Assembly (NCBI GenBank): GCA_021775805.1
Contig: JAJFHD010000015.1
Location: 1 to 64,000 of the forward strand
Direction of reading: 5' to 3'
DNA length: 64,000 nucleotides
DNA from: Alphaproteobacteria bacterium
GTDB lineage: Bacteria > Pseudomonadota > Alphaproteobacteria > Rhizobiales > JAJFHC01
Shown here one piece after another: positions 56,815-59,070 of this stretch; position 1 is the first letter of the stretch; every line of letters begins with the position of its first letter. Under the pieces are notes generated by a model. The model saw only the letters and a list, made by a program, of their open reading frames with translations. It was not told the DNA's origin and searched no databases. A program made the position numbers and the translations under genes.

Positions 56815-57273
56815 TCAGTCGTGCCAGAGGCCGCGTTTTTTGGCCTTGGCGGTTTTCATGAGTGTGTGCAGACGTGGTGGCGCGTCACTGAGCACTTGCG
56901 CCCATCCGGTGTGGATCATGCCTTCGGTAAGATCATAGCCATCCGACAGGCACCTGGATCCGGCAAGACCGCCTGGTGCAGCGTTACAGACAACACGGGC
57001 GCCCGCCGTCAGATCCATGAGACCGGCGCGTGAAAGAATACCGCAGTCGCGTTGCTTGCCGCGAAGTTGGCAGGTGTCGCCTGGTTTCGGAGCCCGGATG
57101 CCATAGAGCCTGTGTGATTTTCCATCGACGATGATGACACTGCCCGACGTGACCACCGTGGACGCCTCTGCCGCATGCGTCGATCCTGTAAACACGAACG
57201 GTGAAAACGCCAAGCCAATCACTGCGCTGGCAAAAAAGCGGAGGCTGTTTCCCGAGCCTTTTGTCAAGATCAT
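56815..57273 (-). CDS. Secreted staphylococcal-nuclease-fold protein, degenerate
   Basis: A 152-residue protein with a signal peptide (RFFASAVIGLAFSPFVFTGSTHA). The thermonuclease fold is recognisable from VDGKSHRLYGIRAPKPGDTCQLRGK, GARVVCNA and GMIHTGWAQVL..., ending KKRGLWHD. The active-site parts differ from true nucleases: GIDAPE is GIRAPK, and the YGR segment after the catalytic strand is missing (CNAAPGGLAGSRC). It is probably not an active nuclease. It lies just after the cysteine-repeat cytochrome gene on the same strand, behind a terminator. Confidence 0.7.
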   Translation of the reverse strand: MILTKGSGNSLRFFASAVIGLAFSPFVFTGSTHAAEASTVVTSGSVIIVDGKSHRLYGIRAPKPGDTCQLRGKQRDCGILSRAGLMDLTAGARVVCNAAPGGLAGSRCLSDGYDLTEGMIHTGWAQVLSDAPPRLHTLMKTAKAKKRGLWHD

Positions 57274-57351: not shown

Positions 57352-58815
57352 TTATTTCTTGCGGTTTTCTTCAGGCATCAACATCATGTGGTCGTTCTCT
57401 TCAGCCGAAGAGTGACAATCATGACAGAACTTCAGACCGGCCGAGTTCTTGCCCTTGGTCCTCCCGAACGTGGTTCCGTTTGGCATCACCATCGTGTAAC
57501 GCCAGTCGGCAGTTGCCTTGTTCCAGCCTCTGACCATCTTCTCCATGATGAACAGCGGCCCGGCGGAACCGGCACCGGCCTTGGTGACTGAAAAACTATC
57601 CTTGGCCAGGATCGATCCGATCGGCATCCGCTTGATCTTCTCATATTGGACATAGGTCTTGGCTGACAGTTTGTTGCCGTAGTTGTTGACCTGACGCCCG
57701 CCATGGGTGTCGGACTGGTAAGGACCGGAACTGAACAGCCGCCACTTGCCATAACGCTTTGCCCAGCGGTCGCTTGATTTGGCGTAAGCAGCTTTCATTT
57801 CCTTGCCCAGACAATTGTACAGGTCGGCCGCTTCCTTCGCGGTCAACTCGACGGCTGCGCCTGCCGCACAGGGGTTGCACGGATTGCAAGGATTGGCTGC
57901 TGCGCAGGGGTTGCACGGGTTGCAGGCTTTGGCCGCAGCACAGGGGTTGCACGGATTGCAGGCCTTGGCCGCTGCACAAGGGTTGCACGGATTGCAGGCC
58001 TTGGCCGCTGCACAGGGGTTGCACGGATTGCAGGCCTTGGCCGCTGCACAAGGGTTGCACGGATTGCAGGCCTTGGCCGCTGCACAGGGGTTGCATGGAT
58101 TGCAGGCCTTGGCCGCTGCACAGGGGTTGCATGGATTGCAGGCCTTGGCCGCCGCACAGGGGTTGCACGGGTTGCAGGCCTTGGCCGCCGCACAAGGGTT
58201 GCATGCCGCGGCTTGCCTGATGCGTGGTACAAAACACTTCTTGCTGGCACTCCCGCCACCTGCTGCACATGGGTTGCAGGGGTTACACGGATTGCAAGCA
58301 TTTGCCGCACATGGATTGCACGGATTACAGGCCTTAGCCGCCGCGCATGGATTGCACGGGTTGCAGGCTTTGGCTGCAGCACAGGGGTTGCACGGATTAC
58401 AGGCCTTGGCCGCTGCACAAGGGTTGCACGGATTGCAGGCTTTAGCTGCAGCGCAAGGATTGCACGGGTTGCAGGCTTTAGCTGCAGCGCAAGGATTGCA
58501 CGGGTTGCAGGCTTTTGCTGCCGCACAAGGGTTGCATGGGTTGCAGGCTTTGGCCGCCGCACAGGGATTGCACGGATTGCAGGCCTTCGCCGCCGCACAG
58601 GGGTTGCACGGATTGCAGGCCTTCGCCGCCGCACAAGGATTGCACGGATTGCACGCCTTTGCCGCCGCACAGGGGTTACAGGCAGTACACGCCGCCGCAG
58701 CTGGGTTGGAATTGACAACCACTCCACCCGCCATGATGCCACCGGCTACCGTCACGCCCACGGCAATCGGAACCATGGCTGCTGTTGATAAAAGACGATT
58801 TCTGAAATCGCGCAT
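57352..58815 (-). CDS. Exported cysteine-repeat protein with C-terminal cytochrome P460-like domain
   Basis: A 487-residue protein; ATG 58815 follows GAGGGAAAA. Residues 1-45 hold a long hydrophobic signal segment ([20 protein letters not shown]) with a likely cleavage site in [10 protein letters not shown]. Two blocks then carry the dodecapeptide [12 protein letters not shown]: nine exact copies plus degenerate ends, a 19-residue linker ([19 protein letters not shown]), then seven exact copies plus degenerate ends, more than 60 cysteines. The last 170 residues resemble cytochrome P460 / cytochrome c'-beta ([34 protein letters not shown]) with one haem c site CHDCH at 464-468. P460 proteins oxidise hydroxylamine or bind NO. 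The repeat could bind metal ions or form a disulfide-linked array; this is inference. Confidence 0.85.
57855..58205 (-). repeat. 36-base tandem repeat, block 2 (membrane-distal)
   Basis: Seven exact coding copies of the [12 protein letters not shown] unit with degenerate ends, each 36 bases and nearly identical at the DNA level. Such arrays expand and contract by slippage or recombination. Confidence 0.85.
58262..58700 (-). repeat. 36-base tandem repeat, block 1 (next to the signal segment)
   Basis: Nine exact coding copies of the same unit plus [12 protein letters not shown] at one end and shortened units ([24 protein letters not shown]) at the other. Codons vary somewhat more than in block 2 (Leu-free, TGC for almost all Cys). 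Confidence 0.85.
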
Positions 58816-59070
58816 TAAATTTTCCCTCTTTCTACGTATTTCAGTACCGCCGCCGCAAAATAGGACGGCTGCGGAACTCCCTTCGACGAAATGCAATATC
58901 GAGAAAACTCTATCAGCGACGGCCGTTCAACGAGTTTCAATTAACATCACTTAAGTGTGATCTCGGGTCGAAATCTTGGGACCGCTATCTTTTCGTCAGA
59001 TTTGGACCGTACGCGGCCTATCGGGTCTGGAAGGCCGCTGCACGAGACGGGGATGCCGGAAATTCGAGTG

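Follow-up and report, generated by a model that had tools for sequence, protein, structure and literature searches.

Apparently exported cysteine arrays fused to a cytochrome P460-type domain in an alphaproteobacterial protein family

The window analysed here, a stretch of 64,000 nucleotides of contig JAJFHD010000015.1, carries on its minus strand a repeat gene that an earlier note had placed at 57352–58815; both the position and the description were correct, the open reading frame being exact and encoding 487 amino acids. The encoded protein combines two cysteine-rich array blocks, separated by a short insert, with a C-terminal haem domain, and its features are as follows.

57352..58815, (-) strand: complete gene for the predicted exported CxxC-array/cytochrome P460 fusion, 487 aa plus stop, with exact ORF coordinates and homologues
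58690..58815, (-) strand: N-terminal signal peptide region, residues 1–42, judged by eye
58261..58689, (-) strand: array block 1, residues 43–185, 37 Cys (Cys count; TRF)
58207..58260, (-) strand: conserved 18-residue insert, residues 186–203, containing C194, with the motif C[FVY][VI]PR[LI] (homologue comparison)
57853..58206, (-) strand: array block 2, residues 204–321, 29 Cys (Cys count)
57355..57852, (-) strand: cytochrome P460 domain, residues 322–487, 3 Cys (PF16694; AF2; Foldseek)
57811..57813, (-) strand: domain Cys14 = C335 (LYNCL), which is proposed to form a disulfide with the insert Cys (covariation)
57601..57603, (-) strand: domain Lys84 = K405, invariant, aligned with the heme-crosslink Lys70 of NeP460 (alignment to 2je2/8gar)
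57541..57543, (-) strand: domain Glu104 = E425, invariant, aligned less certainly with the distal carboxylate Glu96 of NeP460 (HMMER alignment through a gapped region)
57412..57426, (-) strand: haem c attachment motif CHDCH (sequence; C, C and H invariant in the alignment)
56815..57273, (-) strand: next gene downstream, small SNase-like exported protein, below the Pfam cut-off but a conserved neighbour at 12/51 loci

By count, 66 of the 70 cysteines of the protein lie in the arrays, which contain 16 exact copies of a 12-residue unit and 20 occurrences of CNPCNPC; the earlier figures of more than 60 cysteines in two tandem blocks with at least 16 repeat copies are thus borne out. Of the 261 array residues, 25% are Cys and 18 are Lys; aromatic and acidic residues and His are absent. 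The gene product is apparently exported by a Sec-type signal peptide, as judged by eye and in agreement with the earlier reading, with no consistent twin-arginine motif among the signal peptides of the family, and a signal-peptide motif, LLS...P..G, was found by regular-expression count in 25 of 53 array-bearing P460 proteins versus none of 41 array-less ones.

The repeat was found to be a genuine coding feature. TRF reported a single 36-bp array of 22.4 copies in the gene, and all 21 occurrences of CNPCNPC-encoding DNA in the 6.6-Mb genome fall inside it, with none for reversed-pattern controls in the same genome. Among the 16 identical protein units, DNA variation is confined to third codon positions (10/10 variable sites). 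For all repeat units together, the sense frame has a pN/pS of 0.10 and one antisense frame a pN/pS of 0.11, so that the sense-frame value alone cannot exclude that antisense frame. In homologues, array and P460 domain share one reading frame in a single fused gene, and this, together with the third-position-only variation, rules out a low-complexity or antisense artefact. A 383-aa antisense ORF with its own 12-residue repeats crosses the array on the plus strand (57803–58954), an expected by-product of the repeat. As the earlier note had recognized, the arrays do not form a multihaem cytochrome c: they contain no CxxCH, and the sole such motif of the protein is the CHDCH of the domain.

The C-terminal domain is of the cytochrome P460 type, in agreement with the single-haem assignment made earlier. 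Scanned alone, residues 322–487 matched PF16694 with 37 bits against a gathering cut-off of 27, whereas the whole 487-residue protein gave no Pfam score, probably because its composition swamps the filter. The AlphaFold2 model of the domain has a pLDDT of 89.5, and its best Foldseek match is the P460 of Methylococcus capsulatus (6hiu; E = 3.7e-7, probability 1.00), with the P460/c′-β fold and about 20% identity in the fold match. A PDB sequence search with the domain was not significant in itself (E = 0.06–0.9 for P460/c′-β chains), and the assignment is therefore carried by the fold match and the Pfam score; a plasmid search with the domain returned no match. The CxxCH motif, K84 and E104 are invariant in an alignment of 28 domain sequences. 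K84 falls on Lys70 of N. europaea P460 (2je2, 8gar) and E104 falls on Glu96, in an alignment that crosses gaps and is less certain; in that enzyme the former forms the heme crosslink and the latter is the distal carboxylate (PMC11928373). Both of these residues thus appear to be present in the domain.

Judged from its homologues, the array-P460 design is a conserved family, with more than 60 alphaproteobacterial members from many orders, which answers the earlier proposal to look for the fusion in other alphaproteobacteria. When genome contigs and relatives were scanned, 83 loci yielded 51 P460 matches with arrays and 45 without, and later additions brought the former number to 66. The order of block 1, insert, block 2 and domain is common to most complete array members, and the N-terminal part of the homologues contains between 8 and 108 cysteines. 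Tandem repeats are unstable elements. In a tree of 103 sequences, the array label requires six changes (one of which is a contig-edge truncation, L070) versus 32.5 in shuffles, which indicates that the arrays have been kept through deep divergence. Across 105 array ORFs the median Cys content is 22% and the median content of acidic or aromatic residues 0%, with a Cys–Cys spacing of 3 dominating (967 cases); relatives replace CNPC by CGAC, CGPC or CSPC, and therefore the CxxC spacing is what is kept. Met or His spacers occur in a few arrays (L031, L037, L066, L169 and L206), amounting to 0.46% Met and 0.23% His overall. The family also includes array-only exported peptides of 74–140 residues, which adjoin DUF6969 genes and carry no P460 domain. 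A survey of 398 genomes across the phylum gave only three single matches outside the class, one of which is a real array joined to a SoxA/TsdA cytochrome c. In the non-alphaproteobacterial L206, where the array with this fusion partner is of the NPC type, there is also a second, Met/His-rich array ORF.

All 36 complete array homologues with the insert motif have the domain Cys (34 scored and two by reading), including L045 and L051, apparent exceptions in which the residue was found on reading (YDCL and FDCL). Among complete array entries lacking the insert, five have no Cys14 (two of them, L066 and L075, being identical in sequence) and one (L009) has it, while 32 array-less P460 proteins have none, the two exceptions being the truncated L070 and L079, which has an N-terminal Cys. 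From this co-occurrence a disulfide between the insert Cys and Cys14 is predicted, and it suggests that the insert docks onto the P460 domain. The CxVPR of the insert was also considered as an FGE target (CxPxR) and rejected: its Pro is shifted by one position, and the insert is present where no FGE is linked, so that the disulfide with Cys14 fits better.

Of 51 array-related loci, 26 have a DUF6969 (PF22308) gene in the neighbourhood, 19 have an FGE-like (PF03781) protein, 13 have small array-only proteins and 12, the window included, have the SNase-like gene. In a survey of 289 alphaproteobacterial genomes, with an array defined as at least three CNPCAA, 23 genomes were positive; DUF6969 was present in 21 of these 23 versus 40 of the 266 others (p = 5e-14), and the exported FGE-like subfamily in 15 of 23 versus 5 of 266 (p = 1.5e-15), both values ignoring phylogenetic relatedness. 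Of the latter five FGE-positive genomes, four have arrays of the CGAC or NPC type. The genome of the window contains an intact FGE-like orthologue at C141, unlinked to the array gene, and has no DUF6969 according to both a family search, run with no positive control, and an alignment search that found the family in 61 genomes. DUF6969 is also absent from the Kiloniellaceae neighbourhoods, where an array-less P460 and an Rrf2/SUF operon lie next door instead. A Sulf_transp (YeeE/TsuA-like) gene accompanies eight array-P460 loci and one further locus (L167). Among the annotated neighbours, a subset of all neighbours, we recognized neither a copper ATPase nor a CueO or Cus gene; rhodanese, a Sox operon and MNIO (DUF692) or DUF2063 genes were likewise not recognized there. 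At one array-only locus (L174, 2325–6618), genes for a VTT-domain protein and a pyridine nucleotide-disulfide oxidoreductase lie upstream and a histidine-kinase-like gene lies downstream; a similar kinase-like gene follows the arrays of L170 and L171.

The DUF6969 protein of L110 (3208–3948) and 26 relatives share an invariant histidine cluster, within an invariant set of His, Asp, Glu and Tyr residues (HYPxGD, YYYHxH and EHGHFH). The protein is probably cytosolic, since no signal peptide was seen by eye, and possibly represents a new enzyme family. Its model has a pLDDT of 82 overall with a good core and no PDB fold match at E ≤ 0.001; an MNIO-like barrel is supported neither by the fold search nor by a sequence match. 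Close to the C-terminus of the FGE-like protein lies an invariant GCGxCR, possibly a copper site like the Cys pair of FGE.

The reading that we tentatively favour, at somewhat less than even odds, is that the arrays work in the periplasm in the manner of a metallothionein or bufferin. As a sponge of high capacity, the two flexible CxxC arrays would bind a soft metal, most likely Cu(I), through their thiolates and may buffer or supply it near the haem. The P460-type haem c domain tethered to them would act on hydroxylamine, NO or another reactive nitrogen compound, and the stand-alone array peptides would be such sponges in untethered form. A soft metal, and copper in particular, is suggested by the composition of the arrays, by the Met and His spacers of some relatives and by the FGE-like partner; Met and His are typical ligands of periplasmic copper proteins, and FGEs are cuproenzymes. 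The association of arrays with DUF6969, the precedent set by bufferins and a Cys parity that does not require all cysteines to pair are further points in favour of the sponge. Of the Cu(I), Zn or Fe–S centres raised in the earlier note, a soft metal is accordingly retained as a possibility, whereas Fe–S centres are disfavoured by the apparent Sec signal, as judged by eye. Counting against a copper sponge are the lack of a recognized copper-transport gene among the annotated neighbours, the small number of Met/His spacers and, in the window genome, the missing DUF6969 and the unlinked FGE-like gene, and the Sulf_transp and SUF/Rrf2 neighbours and the SoxA/TsdA fusion point to sulfur or redox chemistry instead.

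Each of the known systems resembles the protein in part. It shares with cytochrome P460 (PF16694; N. europaea 2je2 and M. capsulatus 6hiu) the fold, the CxxCH, the position of the crosslink Lys and the probable distal carboxylate, but adds N-terminal arrays with more than 60 cysteines. Metallothioneins share the high Cys and Lys content, the CxxC motif and the lack of aromatic residues and His, whereas the array protein is apparently exported, is long, has a regular CNPC repeat and is fused to a haem domain; of metallothionein-type motifs its arrays have CxxC only and no CxC. No known metallothionein family was matched: the full protein gave no Pfam match and only an unrelated NCBIfam match below the cut-off, and a stand-alone array gave only a sub-cut-off match to zf-CXXC. 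The copper storage proteins Csp1 and Csp3 also have many Cys and, as is proposed here, bind Cu(I); they are four-helix bundles with Cys pointing inwards (PMC5171941), whereas the array is an Ala/Asn/Pro repeat. Bufferins are exported Cu-binding Cys modules, sometimes fused to Cytochrom_C and FGE (PMC12452194). Bufferins (Buf1/Buf2) and MNIO-modified copper RiPPs resemble the arrays in being Cys-rich modules that are exported, in being fused now and then to cytochrome c and FGE-sulfatase domains and in having a cytosolic partner gene, but the Cys motif of the arrays differs, no MNIO/DUF2063 was recognized among the annotated neighbours and the partner DUF6969 has no PDB fold match; no match to the Buf1/Buf2 precursor family was found in Pfam or NCBIfam.

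One alternative is that the arrays are substrates of post-translational modification, the cytosolic DUF6969 and/or the exported FGE-like protein modifying the Cys of exported precursors as MNIO enzymes do with bufferins, with the P460 fusion being one long precursor. FGE-fold proteins act on Cys or sulfur, the invariant residues of DUF6969 suggest a metalloenzyme, the signal-peptide motif is conserved, the three components co-occur strongly in the 289 genomes and DUF6969 adjoins array peptides that have no P460; we nevertheless consider this explanation unlikely, as the window genome and the Kiloniellaceae neighbourhoods have no DUF6969 and its predicted fold, matching nothing in the PDB, is unlike the MNIO TIM barrel. 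A related proposal, doubtful but with a somewhat better prospect, is that DUF6969, the exported FGE-like protein and the CNPC-array proteins constitute a cassette not described before. The Cys arrays would be modified or metallated by a new family of enzymes before or after export, and the fused payloads would be P460 domains and, once, outside the alphaproteobacteria, a SoxA/TsdA cytochrome c.

Three further explanations were considered. The earlier suggestion of a cross-linked disulfide rod, here a structural rod or cell-wall tether displaying the P460 domain, would suit the extreme repeat and the oxidizing periplasm, and a Chelativorans homologue (L051, 5185–6570) has a peptidoglycan-binding domain (PF01471) between array stretches. 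The total of non-haem Cys is odd in 28 proteins and even in 27, so the cysteines need not all pair; this absence of parity bias disfavours the fully cross-linked form, with intermolecular links still compatible, and the stand-alone peptides with nothing to tether and the Met/His-spacer variants also make a rod improbable. That the array Cys hold persulfides or disulfides, as a sulfane-sulfur or redox reservoir exchanging with sulfur transport or the haem, is suggested by the Sulf_transp genes, by SUF/Rrf2 in Kiloniellaceae and by the SoxA/TsdA fusion, but seems quite improbable, given that no rhodanese or Sox operon was recognized among the annotated neighbours and that the window locus has none of these sulfur-related genes next door. 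Ferredoxin triads resemble CxxCxxC and a SUF operon adjoins some loci, yet an array of Fe–S clusters on these triads is very improbable: export is apparently of the Sec type, with no twin-arginine motif by eye, so that clusters would not be loaded beforehand, the spacing of a fourth ligand varies (4, 5, 6 or more) and the FGE/DUF6969 association would be left unexplained.

Cytochrome P460 is already known, while the fusion, the stand-alone arrays and the cassette appear to be undescribed: the open-access literature searched yielded no account of DUF6969 or of the arrays, whether fused or stand-alone, and the words fusion, fused and domain are absent from a 2025 P460 review. The arrays lacking P460, the association with DUF6969 and the FGE-like protein and the statistical pairing of the insert and domain cysteines go beyond the first reading of the sequence. 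P460 haems oxidize hydroxylamine and play a part in the emission of NO and N2O, and the characterized forms have been reviewed with no fused array described (PMC11928373). The lineage-wide fusion of such a domain to dozens of exported Cys, shared with stand-alone peptides and the DUF6969/FGE-like pair, suggests that alphaproteobacteria have an unrecognized metal or thiol system in the periplasm. Since named isolates, among them Pelagibius litoralis, Hoeflea poritis (L028, where DUF6969 is linked), Nitratireductor sp. XY-223 and Chelativorans alearense, have homologues, direct testing is possible.

Other P460 genes were seen during this work. The genome of the window has two more, a tandem pair at C87 (L116, 6975–8449; G000:C87:17412-18418), with a gene that by eye is truncated-haemoglobin-like just downstream. 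At another locus (L076, 745–2022), an adenylate/guanylate cyclase domain is followed by a P460-like domain that scores slightly under the Pfam cut-off, and the protein is a possible haem-based sensor.
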